Under the pieces are notes generated by a model that made no database searches, was not told the origin of the DNA, and saw only the letters and a list, made by a program, of their open reading frames with translations. The position numbers were made by a program, and so were the translations under genes. Shown here in pieces: positions 12,767 through 22,118 of a stretch of 64,000 nt of DNA (position 1 is its first letter; each line of letters begins with the position of its first letter). Origin of the DNA: Bacteroidaceae bacterium (GTDB lineage: Bacteria; Bacteroidota; Bacteroidia; Bacteroidales; Bacteroidaceae); the NCBI GenBank assembly GCA_017536765.1, contig JAFXGV010000025.1, forward strand, positions 1 to 64,000, read 5' to 3'.

Positions 12767-12995
12767 TTGTTTTTTAATGGTTTTATTATTTTTTCTTCAT
12801 TTTCAAAAACTTTGCCCTATGGCACATACGTATATAGTATAAACCATACTAACCATAAGAAATGTAAAATTAAGGATTTTTATTATAAAAAACACATAAA
12901 ACATTATTTTTTTACTTTTTCAACGAAATAATTGTGTAGCTGCAAGCCTGTTACATTATTTATTGTGTAAATTTTTATCATTTTTGATATACCTA
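12767..12995. other. AT-rich upstream region of the giant secreted protein
   Basis: About 230 bases of very AT-rich sequence upstream of the 2040-residue gene. It presumably holds that gene's promoter (minus strand), but I found no pair of TTTG and TAnnTTTG boxes at the right spacing. No coding potential was seen. Confidence 0.5.
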
Positions 12996-13580
12996 AACTC
13001 CTCCACAAGCGGGTGTATAAAAACTCCTCCGGCACAAAGTATTATCTAAACTCCTCCGGCACTGCGTGCCACCTCCTCTTAAAGAGGAGGAGTATGTTTG
13101 CTAATACTCTCCCTCTTCAAGAGGGAGTACCCGAAGGGGGAGGGAGTTCATTAAAACTCCACCGCGGGTATTATCTATACTCCTCCACCGCAAGCGGTCC
13201 CCCTCCTCTAAAAGAGGAGGAGTTTATTGTTTTTTACTGCTCCTCATTAGGAGGAGCCGGATTGTGGCGAAGCCACAAGACTGAGGAGGTTATAAATTTA
13301 TTCAGCAAACTACTCCACCGCGGGGTATTGTCTATACTCCTCCGGCACTGCGTGCCACCTCCTCTTCAAGAGGAGGAGTTTGTTTGCTAATGCTCTCCCT
13401 CTTAAAGAGGGACGGTGCGATACCGTAGCACCGTTTGCGACGACGAAAGCTTTAGCTTTCCAAAGGAGTGCCGAAGGCCCCAACAGCCGGGAGGGAGTTC
13501 GCTAAAACTGCACCGCGGGTATTATCCTAACTCCTCCGGCACTATGTGCCACCTCCTCTTAAAGAGGAGGAGTATATCCC
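12996..13580. repeat. Hairpin-rich intergenic repeat cluster A
   Basis: A mosaic of short units, each able to fold: CTCCTCCGGCACTGCGTGCC (GGCAC/GTGCC hairpin), CCTCCTCTTAAAGAGGAGG, and CTCCCTCTTCAAGAGGGAG followed by TACCCGAAGGGGGAGGGAGT. The CTCCTCCGGCAC...GTGCC unit begins near 13051, 13337 and 13531. Units are linked by AT-rich spacers such as TATTATCTATA. The same units recur in cluster B (15062-15660), on the other side of ilvC. Open frames across the repeats (for example + strand 13013-13390 and 13415-13717) are low-complexity by-products. Confidence 0.88.
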
Positions 13581-13952: not shown

Positions 13953-14996
13953 TTACTTGTTCTCGGGACGGAGCTGACGAACAACTTCGGCTGTGCGCCA
14001 CATCTCGCTGTCGTGGAGAGCCTTGAGCTCGGCATTGAGTTTCTCGCGATAATCGGGCTGTGAGTTAGAGTCGATTGAACGCTGAGCCTCTTTACCTGTC
14101 TTTACAGAGTCGTACAACTGGTACATAACGGGCTTGATAGCATCGTGGAAGGGAGTCATCCAATCGAGAGCACCGCGCTGTGCTGTGGTAGAGCAGTTGG
14201 CATACATCCAGTCCATACCGTTCTTTGCGAACAGGGGCATAAGCGACTGTGTGAGCTCCTCAACTGTTTCGTTGAAAGCCTCAGAGGGTGTGTGGCCGTT
14301 CTCGCGCAATACCTCGTACTGTGCAAGGAGGAGGCCCTGGATGGCACCCATCAATGAACCACGCTCACCGGTGAGGTCCGATACAGCCTCGCGCTGGAAT
14401 GTGGTCTCGAACATATAACCCGAACCGATACCAATACCGAATGCCAATACGCGGTTGAGTGCCTTGCCTGTTACATCCTGATAGATAGCGTATGATGAGT
14501 TCAAGCCGCGGCCCTCGAGGAACATTGTGCGCAACGATGTACCCGAACCTTTGGGGGCAACCATAATAACGTCGATGTCGGCGGGGGGAACGATGCCTGT
14601 TCTGTCGCTCCAGTTGATACCGAAGCCGTGTGAGAAGTAGAGCGCCTTGCCTGCTGTGAGGTAGGGTTTAACCTTGGGCCATACTGCAATCTGTGCAGCG
14701 TCTGAAAGCAACATACATACGATGGTACCCTTCTCGGCAGCCTCCTCAATAGAGAAGAGTGTCTCGCCGGGAACCCAACCGTCTTTAACAGCCTTGTCGT
14801 ATGTGCTGCCGGGGCGCTGACCTACGATTACGTTGAAGCCGTTGTCGCGCAGGTTGCAAGCCTGTCCGGGGCCCTGCACACCATAACCGAGCACTGCGAT
14901 TGTTTCGTCTTTCAAAATCTCACGAGCTTTCTCGAGTGAAAACTCTTTGGGAGTAATTACGTTTTCGATTACTCCGCCAAAATTCATTTCTGCCAT
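13953..14996 (-). CDS. ilvC: Ketol-acid reductoisomerase
   Basis: The second step of valine and isoleucine synthesis: it isomerises and reduces acetolactate or acetohydroxybutyrate to the dihydroxy acid using NAD(P)H and Mg2+. At 347 residues it is a short (class I) enzyme. The dinucleotide-binding motif is GYGVQGPGQACNLRDNG near residues 37-53, followed by VIVGQRPGS, the loop that sets cofactor preference. Downstream are the helical KARI C-terminal domain motifs (ERGSLMGAIQGLL, and E-x-x-E-x-x in FNETVEELTQS). It is the last gene of the ilvD-B-N-C run, but about 670 nt of repeats separate it from ilvN, so it may have its own promoter or depend on read-through. Start by the ATG giving MAEMNFGG, typical of the family. 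Confidence 0.95.
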   Translation of the reverse strand: MAEMNFGGVIENVITPKEFSLEKAREILKDETIAVLGYGVQGPGQACNLRDNGFNVIVGQRPGSTYDKAVKDGWVPGETLFSIEEAAEKGTIVCMLLSDAAQIAVWPKVKPYLTAGKALYFSHGFGINWSDRTGIVPPADIDVIMVAPKGSGTSLRTMFLEGRGLNSSYAIYQDVTGKALNRVLAFGIGIGSGYMFETTFQREAVSDLTGERGSLMGAIQGLLLAQYEVLRENGHTPSEAFNETVEELTQSLMPLFAKNGMDWMYANCSTTAQRGALDWMTPFHDAIKPVMYQLYDSVKTGKEAQRSIDSNSQPDYREKLNAELKALHDSEMWRTAEVVRQLRPENK

Positions 14997-15061
14997 AATT
15001 GTAATTTAATTTGGTTTATTTTTTGTTTTTTGTTTTTATGTTAAAATCCTCTATCGAGGAG

Positions 15062-15660
15062 GGTTTTATTGTTTTATTTATACTCCTCCACCGCGGAGCG
15101 GTAGCCTTCGGCACTCCTTTGGGGACCTAAAGGTCCCGTCGTCGCAAGCAGTGCTGTGGCTCCGCACTGCCCTCTAAAAGAGGAAGAGTTTGTTGCTAAT
15201 GCTCTCCCTCTTAAAGAGGAGGAGCTTGTTTTGCTAATACTCTCCCTCTTCACAAGAGGGAGTACCCGAAGGGGGAGGGAGTTCGTTAAAACTCCACCGT
15301 AGGGTATTATCTATACTCCTCCACCGCAAGGCGGGTGTATAAAAACTCCTCCGGCACTATGTGCCACCTCCTCTTGAAGAGGGAGTACGGCGCCAGCCGG
15401 GAGGGAGTTCGCTAAAACTCCACCGCAAGCGGGTGTATAAAAACTCCTCCGGCACTATGTGCCACCTCCTCTACATTAGAGGAGGAGTTTGTTTTGCTAA
15501 TACTCTCCCTCTTAAAGAGGGAGTACCCGAAGGGGGAGGGAGTTCGTTAAAACTCCTCCGCAAGCGGGTGTATAAAAACTCCTCCGGCACTGTGTGCCCC
15601 CTCCTCTATTTAGAGGAGGAGTTAGTTGCTAATACTCTCCCTCTTCACAAGAGGAGGAGT
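15062..15660. repeat. Hairpin-rich intergenic repeat cluster B
   Basis: The same unit types as cluster A: CTCCTCCGGCACTATGTGCC (near 15346, 15443 and 15580), CTCCCTCTTAAAGAGGGAG, AGTACCCGAAGGGGGAGGGA and CTCCACCGCAAGCGGGTGTA, in at least four rounds. It fills the gap between ilvN and ilvC inside an otherwise compact operon. As RNA it would form many stem-loops between the two reading frames. No real gene was seen in it. Confidence 0.9.
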
Positions 15661-15664
15661 GCGG

Positions 15665-16222
15665 TTACCCCCTTACCTTGCTGCGTATTGAATCCTCGTC
15701 GAAGAGGTTCTCGCTGAGGTTCACGCTTGCATCGCGCACAATGGCCACGCGGCCCGACTTAACGAACTGTAGCACACACTGCTCGGCTGCAAACTCCTTG
15801 TAGAGGCTGAGCACGGCATCGGTCTTTCCGGTCTTTTCCACCACGGTGTAGGCCGAGTTTATCTCTATAACGCGGGCGTTGTTGTGGCGGATGATTTTAG
15901 ATATCTGCTTGTTTTCGAGCAATCGGGGGGTGGACAGCTTATAGAGCGCAACCTCCTGCATAAATATTTCGTTGTCGGTGAAATAGTAGGCACGCAATAT
16001 GTCCACCTTCTTTTCCAGGCGCTTGGTTACGCGCTGTATGAGCCACTCGGTGGTCCACAGAGATATGGTGTAGCGGTGAACGCCCTCTATGTTTGAAGAG
16101 GAAACGTTCAAGGTCTCTATATTCATCTGGCGACGGGTAAACTCGGCTGTCACCTGGTTCAACATTCCGGCAATGTTCTCGGAATATACAATAACGGTAT
16201 ATAGTTTCTTCTCCATAAGCAT
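15665..16222 (-). CDS. ilvN: Acetolactate synthase, regulatory (small) subunit
   Basis: The regulatory subunit of acetohydroxyacid synthase; it binds valine and stimulates the IlvB catalytic subunit. It has 185 residues with an N-terminal ACT domain (YTVIVYSENIAGMLNQVTAE, residues about 8-80) and the usual C-terminal half. Its ATG overlaps the ilvB stop codon (TAATG), a coupled arrangement; a second ATG two codons later gives MEKKLYTV and is an equally possible start. It ends immediately before repeat cluster B, and the last codons lie only a few bases from the first repeat hairpin. I would also accept the symbol ilvH. Confidence 0.93.
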   Translation of the reverse strand: MLMEKKLYTVIVYSENIAGMLNQVTAEFTRRQMNIETLNVSSSNIEGVHRYTISLWTTEWLIQRVTKRLEKKVDILRAYYFTDNEIFMQEVALYKLSTPRLLENKQISKIIRHNNARVIEINSAYTVVEKTGKTDAVLSLYKEFAAEQCVLQFVKSGRVAIVRDASVNLSENLFDEDSIRSKVRG

Positions 16223-17916
16223 TACTCTAAAATCATCTCACATACCGACGCGCCAAGGGGCATCATAGGCATCACATTGTCCTCGGCACGTACTACCACG
16301 TTCAGCAGGAAGGCACCCGGGGTTTCAACCATCTCCTTGATGGCGGCATCGAGCTCGCTGCGGTCCTTAACGAAACGCGACGGAATACCGTAGGCCTCGG
16401 CTATCTTGCAGAAGTCGGGGTTGCACATAGGTGTCCACGAACAACGGTTCTCGTAGAACAGCTGCTGCCACTGGCGCACCATACCTAAGTAACTATTGTC
16501 CATCACTATCATCTTCACGGGGCAACGCTGCTCCATAATGGTACCAAGCTCCTGCATATTCATCTGGAAACCGCCGTCGCCTGCAAAGTAGCACACGGTG
16601 CGGTGAGGAGCACCCATTGTGGCACCCATTGCAGCGGGAAGGCCGAAGCCCATTGTGCCCAGGCCACCCGATGTGATGATGCTGTGAGGCTCTTTGTATT
16701 TGAAATAGCGGGCGGCGAACATCTGGTTCTGGCCCACATCGGTCACAAGGATGGCGTTGTGGTTTGTGGCCTCGCTCACCTTGCGGCACACCTCGCCCAT
16801 AAGTATGGGGCCGTCGGTGGGGTTAAGTGCCTTTTCTATAACCTTTTCGTTCTCTATCTTGTCGAGGTCGCCAAAGGTGGCAATCCACTCCTTGTGGCTG
16901 TTCTCGTTGAGCAGTTCGGTGATGAGGGGGAGTGTCTCCTTGCAATCGCCCAATACGGGGATGTCCACGGGAACGCTCTTGTCTATCTCCACCTTATCTA
17001 TATCGAGGTGTATGATTTTTGCCTGCTTGGCATATGTTTCGAGCTTGCCCGTCACGCGGTCGCTGAAACGCATACCTATGGCTATGAGCACGTCGCACTC
17101 GTTGGTGTTCACGTTGGGGCCAAGGTTGCCGTGCATACCAAGCATACCCATACACAGGGGGTGGTCCGATGGCAACGACGACAGGCCCATAAGGGTGCGT
17201 GCTGCGGGGATGCCGCCCTTTTCGAGGAAGGCAATGAGTTCCTTGTGTGCCTCGCCAAGCTCCACGCCCTGCCCCACTACTGCAAAGGGACGCTTGGCAC
17301 GGTTAATGAGGTCGGCTGCCTCTTTTATGCACTGCAAATCGGGTTTGGGATAGGGCACGTAGCTGCGCACGCTATCTACCTTTATAGGTTCGTAGAGCAC
17401 CTGAGACACCTGCGCATTCTTGGTGAAGTCGAGCACCACGGGGCCGGGACGACCTGTGCTTGCTATGTAAAAGGCGCGCGACACTGCCCAGGCTACATCC
17501 TCGGCACTGCGTATCTGGTAACTCCACTTGGAAATGGGCTGTGTAACGCCCACGAGGTCTATCTCTTGGAAGGCATCGGTGCCAAGCACTGCCGAACTCA
17601 CCTGCCCTGCTATCACAACTATGGGGGTGCTGTCGAGCATTGCATCGCTAATGCCTGTGAGGGTGTTTGTGGCACCCGGGCCGCTGGTAACGATGCAGAC
17701 ACCTACCTTGCCCGAACTGCGCGCGTAGCCTTGCGCTGCGTGCACTGCCGCCTGCTCGTGGCGCACGAGCACCTGGTGGAAATCCTCGCGGTAGTCGTAC
17801 AATGCATCGAACACCGGTATAATGGAGCCGCCGGGGTAGCCGTAGATGGTATCTACCTGCTCGTTCTTCAATGAACGCAGAAGTGCTTCGCCACCTGTTA
17901 TTAGTTCTTTCTTCAT
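16222..17916 (-). CDS. ilvB: Acetolactate synthase, catalytic (large) subunit
   Basis: Thiamine-diphosphate enzyme that condenses two pyruvates, or pyruvate and 2-oxobutyrate, at the head of branched-chain amino acid synthesis. It has 564 residues, normal for the family. Glu54 in VRHEQAAVHAAQGYAR is the ThDP-activating glutamate; SGPGATNTLTGI and GQVSSAVLGTDAFQE belong to the N-terminal domain; GDGGFQMNMQELGTI near residue 445 is the metal/ThDP-binding motif. It overlaps ilvN by the TAATG junction and follows ilvD after 136 nt that contain a TGTCAT repeat element. A long open frame on the opposite strand is a shadow. Confidence 0.96.
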   Translation of the reverse strand: MKKELITGGEALLRSLKNEQVDTIYGYPGGSIIPVFDALYDYREDFHQVLVRHEQAAVHAAQGYARSSGKVGVCIVTSGPGATNTLTGISDAMLDSTPIVVIAGQVSSAVLGTDAFQEIDLVGVTQPISKWSYQIRSAEDVAWAVSRAFYIASTGRPGPVVLDFTKNAQVSQVLYEPIKVDSVRSYVPYPKPDLQCIKEAADLINRAKRPFAVVGQGVELGEAHKELIAFLEKGGIPAARTLMGLSSLPSDHPLCMGMLGMHGNLGPNVNTNECDVLIAIGMRFSDRVTGKLETYAKQAKIIHLDIDKVEIDKSVPVDIPVLGDCKETLPLITELLNENSHKEWIATFGDLDKIENEKVIEKALNPTDGPILMGEVCRKVSEATNHNAILVTDVGQNQMFAARYFKYKEPHSIITSGGLGTMGFGLPAAMGATMGAPHRTVCYFAGDGGFQMNMQELGTIMEQRCPVKMIVMDNSYLGMVRQWQQLFYENRCSWTPMCNPDFCKIAEAYGIPSRFVKDRSELDAAIKEMVETPGAFLLNVVVRAEDNVMPMMPLGASVCEMILE

Positions 17917-18052: not shown

Positions 18053-19858
18053 TTATTCTTCAATCACCCTCACACCACCTTTGTCGGCAGAGCTTACCAT
18101 ATTGGCATAGGCCTTGAGGCTCTTTGAAATGACGCGGTTGCGTGTGAGGGGGAGCATCTCGCGGGCAGCCAACTCCTCATCGGTGAGCTTCACATTGATG
18201 GTGCGGGCGGGGATGTCTATCTCTATGATGTCGCCGTCGCGCAGCTTGCCTATGTTGCCGCCTGCCGCAGCCTCGGGCGATATGTGGCCTATGCTCAAGC
18301 CCGATGTGCCGCCGCTGAAACGGCCGTCGGTGATGAGGGCACACTCCTTGCCCAAGTGGCGCGACTTTATATAAGAGGTGGGATAGAGCATCTCCTGCAT
18401 ACCGGGGCCGCCTTTGGGGCCTTCATATACAATGACCACCACGTCGCCTGCCTTTACGTCGCCACCCAAGATGCCCTCGACGGCAGCATCCTGTGAGTCG
18501 AACACTTTGGCTGTGCCTGTGAATTTCCATATGCTCTCGTCGACACCGGCTGTCTTTACCACGCAGCCGTCTTGTGCTATGTTACCAAAGAGGATTGCAA
18601 GGCCGCCGTCCTTGGTGTAGGCGTGAGAGAGCGAGCGTATGCAACCGTTCTCGCGATCGGTGTCAAGGGTATCGTAGTTCTCGCTCTGTGCTCCCATTTG
18701 GTTGCAGAACACATTGGCGGGGCCTGTGCTGTAGATGCGCTGTGCCTCGGCATCCACGGTGCTGCCTGTGATGCTGTACTTTGCAATATCCTCGGCAAGG
18801 GTGGCGCCGTTAACGCGCTTGAGCGATGTGTTGAGCAAGCCGCCCTTGGCAAGCTCGCCCATAATACCTATGATGCCGCCTGCACGACCACAGTCCTGAA
18901 CGCTGTATTTGGGGCCGTTGGGTGCCAGCTTACACAAGCAGGGAACACGGCGGCTCAAACGGTCGATATCGGCCATCTTAAAGTCCACACCGGCCTCCTG
19001 TGCCACTGCAAGCAGGTGAAGGATGGTGTTGGTGGAGCCACCCATTGCAATATCGAGTGTCATTGCATTGAGGAAGGCATCGCGCACGGCTATGCTGCGG
19101 GGCAGCACGCTATCGTCGCCCTCTTCGTAATATTTGAGTGCGTTGGTAACTATCTGCTTGGCGGCATCCTTGAGCAACTGCACACGGTTGGTGTGGGTTG
19201 AAAGGATGGTGCCGTTGCCGGGGAGTGAAAGACCTATGGCCTCGGTGAGGGAGTTCATTGAGTTGGCTGTGAACATTCCCGAGCAGCAGCCGCAACCGGG
19301 GCAGGAACGCTTCTCAACCTCGGCAAGTTCCTCGTCGCTCACGCTTGTGTCGGCAGCCTTTACCATTGCCGATATGAGATCGAGGTTTTCGCCCTTCCAA
19401 GTGCCCTTCTCCATAGGACCGCCCGATACAAACACGGTGGGGATGTTAAGGCGCATAGAGGCCATAAGCATTCCCGGGGTGATTTTGTCACAGTTCGATA
19501 TGCACACAAGGGCATCTACCTTGTGAGCGTTGCACATATACTCCACGCTGTCGGCAATGATGTCGCGCGAGGGCAGCGAGTAGAGCATACCGTCGTGGCC
19601 CATTGCAATGCCGTCGTCTATGGCTATGGTGTTGAACTCGGCGGCATAGCAACCGAGCTTTTCTATTTCGCGCTTCACTATCTGGCCGGCCTCGTGCAGA
19701 TGTGTGTGGCCGGGAACAAGCTGGGTGAACGAGTTGGCAATGGCTATGATGGGCTTGCCGAACATTTCGCGTTTCATACCGTTTGCAATCCACAAGGCGC
19801 GTGCGCCTGCCATACGACGGCCCTCGGTGCATTGCGCGCTTCTTAACTGTATCTTCAT
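18053..19858 (-). CDS. ilvD: Dihydroxy-acid dehydratase
   Basis: Iron-sulphur dehydratase that converts 2,3-dihydroxy-isovalerate (or -methylvalerate) to the 2-oxo acid, the third step for valine and isoleucine. It has 601 residues. The conserved cluster cysteines are in [12 protein letters not shown] (Cys123) and [11 protein letters not shown] (about residues 190-200); [20 protein letters not shown] lies near the C-terminus. It is the first structural gene of the ilv run and is preceded by a 19-codon leader peptide and attenuator (19905-20022). Its ATG lies 47 nt beyond the terminator T-tract, so transcription into the operon should depend on read-through. Confidence 0.96.
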
Positions 19859-19904: not shown

Positions 19905-19936
19905 AAAAAAGCCCTCCTCATTATACAGAGAAAGGC
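19905..19936 (-). terminator. ilv attenuator terminator
   Basis: On the minus strand GCCTTTCTC (19936-19928) pairs with GAGGAGGGC (19919-19911), 9 bp with two G-T pairs and an 8-nt loop, followed directly by TTTTTT (19910-19905) and ATT. It lies between the leader peptide and ilvD. The 5' arm can instead pair with GAGATGGGC (19964-19956) to form an antiterminator. Confidence 0.8.
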
Positions 19937-19955
19937 ACGTTTTTGCATACACACA

Positions 19956-19964
19956 GCCCATCTC
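19956..19964 (-). promoter_or_regulatory. ilv antiterminator strand
   Basis: GAGATGGGC overlaps the TGA of the leader peptide by two bases and pairs at 8 of 9 positions with GCCTTTCTC, the 5' arm of the terminator. A ribosome that finishes the leader and sits on its stop would cover this strand. A ribosome stalled earlier on the Leu/Val codons would leave it free, as in classical attenuation. Confidence 0.65.
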
Positions 19965-20022
19965 ATCCCATTTTCTGCAATAGGACGACCACATTAAGGA
20001 GGTTAATGGATGTTGTGTGCAT
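19963..20022 (-). CDS. ilv operon leader peptide (attenuator)
   Basis: A 19-codon frame encoding MHTTSINLLNVVVLLQKMG. One Ile, four Leu and three consecutive Val make up 8 of the 19 residues, the three amino acids whose synthesis the operon serves. It ends at a TGA that touches the antiterminator strand. The next structure is an intrinsic terminator, followed by ilvD. It begins about 60 nt after the predicted transcription start. The likely function is cis-acting sensing of charged Leu/Val/Ile tRNA through ribosome stalling; the peptide itself probably has no role. It also contains CCTATT...AATGGG, a possible pause hairpin. Confidence 0.8.
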   Translation of the reverse strand: MHTTSINLLNVVVLLQKMG

Positions 20023-20087
20023 TCTCTTAATTATTTATGTTTTAACTCCCGCGGCGGGCTTTTGCTGCCGCAATGGCTAATAGACCG

Positions 20088-20119
20088 CAAAAATAAACTC
20101 TTTTTTTCAGCGGAACAAA
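20088..20119 (-). promoter_or_regulatory. Promoter of the ilv operon
   Basis: Minus-strand TTTG (20119-20116), a 20-nt spacer, then TATTTTTG (20095-20088): an exact match to the Bacteroidetes consensus TTTG-N19-21-TAnnTTTG. Transcription would start near 20082, giving a leader of about 220 nt before ilvD. Confidence 0.75.
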
Positions 20120-20364: not shown

Positions 20365-20372
20365 TAACTTTG
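20365..20372 (+). promoter_or_regulatory. -7 box of the AspT-type transporter gene
   Basis: TAACTTTG matches TAnnTTTG. No good TTTG lies 20 nt upstream. It falls 73 nt before the chosen ATG, which argues against an earlier TTG start at 20370 inside the box itself. Confidence 0.5.
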
Positions 20373-20444
20373 CAGCCGAAAAAGAAGAGAAGAGCAAGAA
20401 CAAAGGCGTTTCACACGTTGGAAACGAAAAAAAACAGATACGTT

Positions 20445-22118
20445 ATGGAATTTATACTTACACTTTTGGAAGGAGCGCAAGGCCAATGGAGCGGCGGCAT
20501 AGCCCACTCTATGATAATACTTGCACTCACGGTGGGATTCGGAATAATGCTTGGCAGGCTTAAAGTGGCCGGCATATCATTCGGAGTAACTTGGATACTG
20601 TTCGTGGGAATAGTATTCTCGCACTTCGGCTACACGCTCAACGGCGATCTGCTGCATTTTGTAAAGGAGTTCGGCCTCATATTGTTTGTGTTTTCAATAG
20701 GTTTGCAGGTGGGGCCGGGATTTTTCTCGAGTTTTAAGGCAGGCGGCCTCGCACTATGCGCAATCACCTGCATAATAGTGCTTTGCGACGTGCTCACCGC
20801 CATAGGCGTGCACTATACCACCGACACACCCATAACCACCGTCACCGGTATTCTGTCGGGTGCTGTGACAAACACCCCCGGACTTGGTGCCGCACAGCAG
20901 ACCTACAGGGAAATAACAGGCTCGTCGGCAACGGACATTGCGCTGGGCTACAGCGTGGCCTACCCTCTTGGTGTAATTGGTTGCATATTGTCGATGTTAG
21001 TGATAAAGAGCCTTTTCTACCGCAAGGACATAGCCCCTGCAACCGACATCGATGGCAAGGAGCTGAACGTGGAGCCTATGACCATCGAGGTGCTGAACCC
21101 TGGTGTGGCAGGGAAAACCTTGGAGGAGATACGCAGCGCAAAGAAATATGACTTTGTGGTGTCGAGGATATTGCACAGCGCCACATACGAGATAGAGATT
21201 GCCAACTCCAAGAGCACATTGCAGGTGGGCGACAAGTTATTGATTATTGTGAAGCCTGCATTCCGCGAGGAGGTGCTGGAGCTTTTCGGCCGCGAGTGCA
21301 TTGTGAACTGGGACAAGGCCGGCGCGCAGTTCCTCTCGAGCAAGATTATTGTCACCAACCCCAAGCTCAATGGAGTGCCCCTGGCCAAGCTGAGCCTGCG
21401 ACAGAACTTCAAGGTGAACCTCACAAGGGTGAATCGTGCGGGCATAGACCTGGTGGCTGCACCCGACCTGCGCCTGCAGATGGGCGACGTGGTTACCGTT
21501 GTGGGTATGGAGAGCTCGGTGAACAGCGTTAAAAGAGTGCTTGGCGACTCGCGCAAGCACTTGGACCACCCCAACCTCATACCAATATTCATTGGCATAG
21601 CGCTTGGCTGCACACTTGGCAGCCTGCCCATTTTCATTCCCGGTATGTCGCAGCCTGTGAAATTAGGCCTTGCAGGCGGTCCGCTGGTGGTGGCCATTTT
21701 ATTGAGTTACTTTGGCCCCAAACTTAAATTGGTTACATACACCACTATGAGTGCCAACCTTATGATAAGAGAGATAGGCATTTCGCTGTTCCTCGCTTGC
21801 GTGGGCCTGGAGGCCGGCAAGGGCTTTGTGGATACCATTGTGAACAACGGCGGTATGTGGTGGGTGCTCTATGGTGCCATCATCACCATAGTACCTCTGC
21901 TCATTGCGGGAACCGTGGGCCGTTACTGCTTTAAGATTCCCTACATAAAACTCATTGGTGTGATGTCGGGTTCGTGCACAAACCCACCCGCTCTTGCTTT
22001 TGCCAACGAGCAGGACAAGAGCAGCGACAAGGCTTCGGTGGGATATGCCACGGTTTATCCGCTTGCAATGTTCCTGCGCATCCTCACCGCACAGCTTATG
22101 ATTCTGCTGTTCTGTTAG
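20445..22118 (+). CDS. AspT/YidE-family membrane transporter with two TrkA-C domains
   Basis: An integral membrane protein of 557 residues. Two hydrophobic halves (about residues 1-170 and 375-557) carry the duplicated AspT/YidE signatures GFGIMLGRLKVAGISFG and SGAVTNTPGLGAAQ in the first half, and SGSCTNPPALAFANEQ in the second. Between them lie two cytosolic TrkA-C-like regulatory domains (for example VEPMTIEVLNPGVAGKTLEEI and IIVTNPKLNGVPLAKLSL). Relatives include the aspartate:alanine exchanger AspT and the uncharacterised YidE/YbjL proteins; the substrate here is unknown, an acidic metabolite being most likely. The start at 20445 (MEFILTLLEG) fits the family and the upstream -7 box. It is transcribed alone and divergently from the ilv operon, ending at a two-way terminator. 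Confidence 0.88.
   Translation: MEFILTLLEGAQGQWSGGIAHSMIILALTVGFGIMLGRLKVAGISFGVTWILFVGIVFSHFGYTLNGDLLHFVKEFGLILFVFSIGLQVGPGFFSSFKAGGLALCAITCIIVLCDVLTAIGVHYTTDTPITTVTGILSGAVTNTPGLGAAQQTYREITGSSATDIALGYSVAYPLGVIGCILSMLVIKSLFYRKDIAPATDIDGKELNVEPMTIEVLNPGVAGKTLEEIRSAKKYDFVVSRILHSATYEIEIANSKSTLQVGDKLLIIVKPAFREEVLELFGRECIVNWDKAGAQFLSSKIIVTNPKLNGVPLAKLSLRQNFKVNLTRVNRAGIDLVAAPDLRLQMGDVVTVVGMESSVNSVKRVLGDSRKHLDHPNLIPIFIGIALGCTLGSLPIFIPGMSQPVKLGLAGGPLVVAILLSYFGPKLKLVTYTTMSANLMIREIGISLFLACVGLEAGKGFVDTIVNNGGMWWVLYGAIITIVPLLIAGTVGRYCFKIPYIKLIGVMSGSCTNPPALAFANEQDKSSDKASVGYATVYPLAMFLRILTAQLMILLFC

Follow-up and report, generated by a model that had tools for sequence, protein, structure and literature searches.

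A predicted leader-peptide attenuator of the branched-chain amino acid operon upstream of ilvD, and its conservation in Bacteroidales

The short region that precedes ilvD in a Bacteroidaceae genome raises the question of whether transcription of the ilv operon is adjusted there to the supply of charged branched-chain tRNAs. In the window, by which we mean the whole stretch of 64,000 nucleotides that was analysed, the leader is followed on the minus strand by ilvD (dihydroxy-acid dehydratase, 18053-19858; NCBIfam equivalog, 1007.8 bits), which would be the first controlled gene, then by ilvB (acetolactate synthase large subunit, 16222-17916; TIGR00118 above cut-off), ilvN/ilvH (acetolactate synthase small subunit, 15665-16222; TIGR00119 above cut-off), a repeat-filled gap and ilvC (ketol-acid reductoisomerase, 13953-14996; TIGR00465 above cut-off). 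The gap between ilvN and ilvC (14997-15664) consists of repeats and has no listed gene of at least 80 codons on the operon strand; ilvC, on its far side, is likely co-transcribed with ilvDBN. Interspersed repeats are found on both sides of ilvC (12979-13563 and 15056-15652), and their 27-base core, GTGCCGGAGGAGTTTTTATACACCCGC, is present in four copies in the genome, all of them around ilvC. Opposite the ilvD leader, a divergent gene for an AspT/YidE/YbjL-type transporter is encoded on the plus strand (20370-22118).

Ribosome-mediated transcription attenuation is a textbook mechanism, and a preliminary description of this DNA had proposed it for ilvD; the coordinates and base pairs given there all proved correct when checked on the minus strand. 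Promoters of Bacteroidota follow the consensus -33 TTTG / -7 TAnnTTTG. The promoter proposed at 20119-20088, of the form TTTG-N20-TATTTTTG, agrees with this consensus exactly at the level of single bases, and a -7 box also lies upstream of the leader in most relatives. Downstream of it, the 19-codon leader that had been pointed out is found at 20022-19963 and encodes MHTTSINLLNVVVLLQKMG (ATG CAC ACA ACA TCC ATT AAC CTC CTT AAT GTG GTC GTC CTA TTG CAG AAA ATG GGA TGA). Eight of its 19 codons specify Ile, Leu or Val, including the run GTG GTC GTC CTA TTG, a content that exceeds that of shuffled sequences and is conserved in the order.

Three strands described previously follow the run. Strand 2 (GAGATGGGC, 19964-19956), the 5' arm of the putative antiterminator, begins within the stop codon TGA, and in most relatives too it starts at the stop codon or a few bases from it. 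As claimed, it forms standard pairs at eight of nine positions, with one U-U mismatch, with strand 3 (GCCTTTCTC, 19936-19928), which is common to the antiterminator (2:3) and the terminator (3:4). In the latter, strand 3 is paired at nine of nine positions, two of them G-U, with strand 4 (GAGGAGGGC, 19919-19911), the 3' half of an intrinsic terminator that continues into six T residues (19910-19905). A further pairing was first seen on folding the window leader: GAATGCACACAAC (strand 1, 20012-20024), which spans the leader start codon, pairs with GCTGTGTGTATGC (19945-19957), which overlaps the end of strand 2 and extends just 3' of it. This predicted protector helix (1:2), overlooked in the preliminary description, completes the classical four-strand design.

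We consider it very probable that the region is a classical ribosome-mediated transcription attenuator through which the supply of charged branched-chain tRNAs sets transcription of the ilvDBN(C) operon. RNA synthesis would begin a few bases past the -7 box, with a ribosome trailing RNA polymerase into the leader ORF. Were Val- or Leu-tRNA scarce, the ribosome would stall on GTG-GTC-GTC-CTA-TTG and prevent strand 1 from pairing; strand 2, thus left free, would capture strand 3 while strand 4 had yet to be transcribed, so that no terminator would form and ilvDBN would be transcribed. With an adequate tRNA supply, the ribosome would reach the stop codon, where strand 2 begins, and cover that strand, whereupon 3:4 would pair and transcription would end near 19905. 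In an untranslated leader, strand 1 would hold the strand 2 region and the terminator would form by default.

The dependence of the fold on ribosome position was modelled by simulating the folding of the RNA only up to strand 3, that is, in the state before strand 4 is synthesised. Across 59 relatives, the expected number of 2:3 pairs was 7.3 with the ribosome stalled halfway through the Ile/Leu/Val run, 4.9 without a ribosome and 0.5 with the ribosome at the stop codon, and the stalled state surpassed the stop state in 53 of the 59. For the window species, 1.9 pairs are expected with the ribosome footprint alone masked and 7.9 with the mask extended to all RNA 5' of the ribosome; here the start-codon helix still competes with 2:3, and the modelled switch is consequently weaker than in many relatives. 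When strand 4 was included, equilibrium folding preferred the terminator in most modelled states and separated the ribosome states poorly, so the switch would hinge on the order of folding during transcription. In the model, ribosome position thus selects the fold, a stall favouring the antiterminator and arrival at the stop codon the terminator, less clearly so in the window species.

Taken by itself, the window is moderately significant and only suggestive of an attenuator: 0.46% of dinucleotide shuffles hold a leader as rich in Ile, Leu and Val (p=0.0046) and 2.9% a 2:3 helix as good (p=0.029). Being just moderately above chance, it also accommodates a plain terminator in the 5' UTR accompanied by a chance ORF, which would produce constitutive partial termination and no sensing. 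Since the significance of the window alone was insufficient, relatives were gathered, and it is the comparative data that decide. The samples comprised 44 genomes of the genus, 198 genomes of the order (83 with ilvD at the threshold used), 198 genomes of the phylum and 80 named loci. For the order, 81 ilvD loci were scored; a strong terminator was counted if it lay no more than 220 bases from the ilvD start, and a leader ORF if it exceeded a score threshold.

By these measures, 69 of the 81 order loci carry a strong terminator, and 59 of those 69 an Ile/Leu/Val-rich leader ORF, against 3.1 expected from shuffles. Typical examples are MNTIVMLVNVVILLVVVTKR, MINTILHIINLLSVIIVVVVR, MTKSILHIILVVVVLVLIPGAT and MNTTLIIIVVVIILILIRT; among named organisms, Bacteroides caecigallinarum (MKATNIIINLAVLHIIRVVVLEPRGEEGSCM) and Phocaeicola faecalis (MNVTTLNNLAVLHIIRFVVVTLGE) carry such a leader. 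The preliminary description had held that a real attenuator would keep its leader codon content among Bacteroidales relatives, and these counts bear this out; the predicted switch is retained in most Bacteroidales examined. A strong terminator was also found in 46 of the 80 named loci, 26 of which have the leader as well, and the arrangement is missing from many loci labelled Prevotella or Prevotellaceae. Outside the order but within the class, at least three of 20 genomes (L157, L171, L174) have a leader and terminator of similar kind, and most lack them.

The same loci bear on a third reading, in which the leader works mainly through translational control, with the ilvD start being sequestered and freed or reached by re-initiation, rather than through termination. 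A short translated upstream ORF could act either way. Nevertheless, loci scored as strong terminators have a T-run after strand 4, and the distance from the end of the terminator to the ilvD ATG varies from ~15 to ~200 nt across loci, which is a poor fit to sequestration of the start; we therefore regard translational control as extremely unlikely.

Within the genus, the leader is far from universal. Of 43 same-genus loci, 18 have no recognisable leader (L009-L011, L013-L017, L021, L027, L028, L030, L036, L037, L040, L041, L043, L044) and five have a weak one. On an ilvD tree, 19 leader-bearing and two weak loci, that of the window included, fall on one branch, with all 18 leaderless loci outside it; the tree is partly built on 300 bases per species, which makes the number of losses uncertain. 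Loci in the sister half of the genus mostly keep promoter and terminator; their leader ORF is missing, lies out of frame or, as with MCPVVVENNDIQ in L012, is short. This pattern speaks in favour of a plain terminator. This loss inside a single genus offers a natural experiment in the decay of such switches.

Five species (L010, L011, L012, L014 and L021) share, just before the terminator, a hairpin of the type GTTCGG.TGTCGTTG ... CAGTGAC.TCCGAAAC with compensating changes. From this hairpin one might suppose that a different RNA sensor took the place of the leader peptide before the same terminator in the sister half, an idea that we hold to be unlikely. L012 and L021 could be interpreted as having short (M/L)CPVVVE..IQ leaders. 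By eye, L011 and L014 show an ORF running from MCS.VV in frame across the terminator region into ilvD, and their ilvD could carry an N-terminal extension.

The competing helices provide the next line of evidence. Strand 3 varies among loci, with versions such as GCCTTTCTC, GCCATTCTT, CCTTTCCAC, GCCCTCC, TTTCCGGGT and CCGATT, and its two partners, strands 2 and 4, vary in step with it. In a permutation test on the order loci, with strand 2 sought only inside an interval defined by the stop codon, 2:3 helices averaged 18.1 with their own partner versus 15.1 with swapped partners, and 0 of 20,000 permutations reached the observed sum. On 44 distinct anchored rows, 93.2% of cells are paired for 2:3 and 97.2% for 3:4, with 101 and 105 double-sided changes, respectively, versus ~29 in either case after shuffling, and all eight column pairs change on both sides for both helices; because each row was positioned on the best helix it contains, the rows are biased towards pairing, and the permutation test, being free of such bias, is the cleaner evidence. 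Both competing stems thus covary through the strand 3 that they share, as the preliminary description had expected of a real attenuator. Protector-type pairing, between the 5' part of the ORF and sequence at or after strand 2, likewise scores higher for own than for swapped partners across the 59 order loci (18.98 versus 15.52), with 0 of 10,000 permutations as good in the order and p=0.018 in the genus.

A terminator and an alternative hairpin upstream of ilvD would also be compatible with the expression platform of a riboswitch, and a metabolite riboswitch or T-box could in principle sense branched-chain amino acids, uncharged tRNA or ppGpp. What is conserved, however, is the codon content of the leader and the competing strands; no aptamer-like block common to the loci was seen, and strand 2 follows the position of the stop codon. 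No Rfam family matched in the window or the tested relatives: the Rfam 15 riboswitch models gave no match in either, and the T-box covariance model none at the gathering score in the window. Sensing of this kind appears highly improbable.

Codon choice in the leaders was compared with that in ilvD at the 22 loci with a sufficiently long ilvD. CTA accounts for 26% of Leu codons in the leaders versus 3% in ilvD, GTC for 51% versus 20% of Val codons, and ATT for 76% versus 36% of Ile codons. In the leu attenuator of Salmonella, the control codon is CUA, and CUG in its place reduces sensitivity (PMC1183508). A CTA preference in another phylum, as in Salmonella leu, fits selection on tRNA sensing, and constraints from pairing within the leader RNA could add to the skew. 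Against a plain terminator with a chance ORF stand this codon skew, the 59 leaders where 3.1 were expected, and the covarying antiterminator and protector, which together render it very unlikely. Attenuation by branched-chain supply, as originally claimed, is supported by codon conservation and covarying stems, from which we infer stalling, read-through and regulation in the cell.

In line with this notion, a second putative attenuator of the same kind occurs in the same genome. A His leader, MFAQNVYHHHHRLSQKRVG, with the run HHHH, precedes hisG (G000:C72; L175, minus strand 1198-1257) and is followed by a terminator-like hairpin, GAGCTTACC...GGTGAGCTC, and then a T-run. An ORF with at least three consecutive His codons lies before hisG in 16 of 19 scored order loci, this genome included, versus 0.05 expected. 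No Thr/Ile leader was found in the region upstream of thrA in the same genome, and leuA sits at contig edges there. Leader-peptide attenuation works only if a ribosome follows RNA polymerase closely; order-wide ilv and His leaders therefore argue for transcription-translation coupling. The argument applies to the ilv and his leaders of Bacteroidales, which are dominant in the gut and whose regulation has received little study, and the ilvD leader offers a compact, genetically testable reporter of tRNA charging for gut Bacteroidales.

Together, our findings describe a new instance of a known mechanism; the mechanism itself is not new. Vitreschak and colleagues reportedly predicted amino-acid attenuators in 2004 (FEMS Microbiol Lett 234:357) in Proteobacteria and some Bacteroidetes/Chlorobi, with targets said to include branched-chain and histidine operons; their predictions concern the same mechanism, to which the present work adds measurements of covariation and codon bias across the order. 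Bacteroid-trp RNA (RF01692), which we take to be a Trp leader attenuator, resembles the ilvD leader in being a predicted cis-regulatory RNA of Bacteroidetes and differs in that RF01692 has no match in the window. That RNA was predicted in Bacteroidetes and classed as cis-regulatory, not as a riboswitch (PMC2864571). The transcriptome of B. thetaiotaomicron contains long 5' UTRs with short ORFs recalling leader peptides, and ilv is absent from the main text of that study (PMC7366714). In the open literature that was searched, we found no description of a Bacteroidales ilv attenuator. In Corynebacterium glutamicum, the ilvBNC attenuator also serves a branched-chain operon through alternative hairpins, and differs in being actinobacterial and in its operon order (PMC11857589). 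The closest likeness in design is to the enteric ilvGMEDA, ilvBN and leu attenuators, with a leader peptide of cognate codons, a protector 1:2, an antiterminator 2:3 and a terminator 3:4, and Salmonella leu shares CUA among its control codons (PMC1183508). Compared with these enteric systems, the attenuator predicted here has ilvD as its first controlled gene, a Bacteroidota-type promoter and leaders rich in Val-Val-Val, and it belongs to a different phylum.
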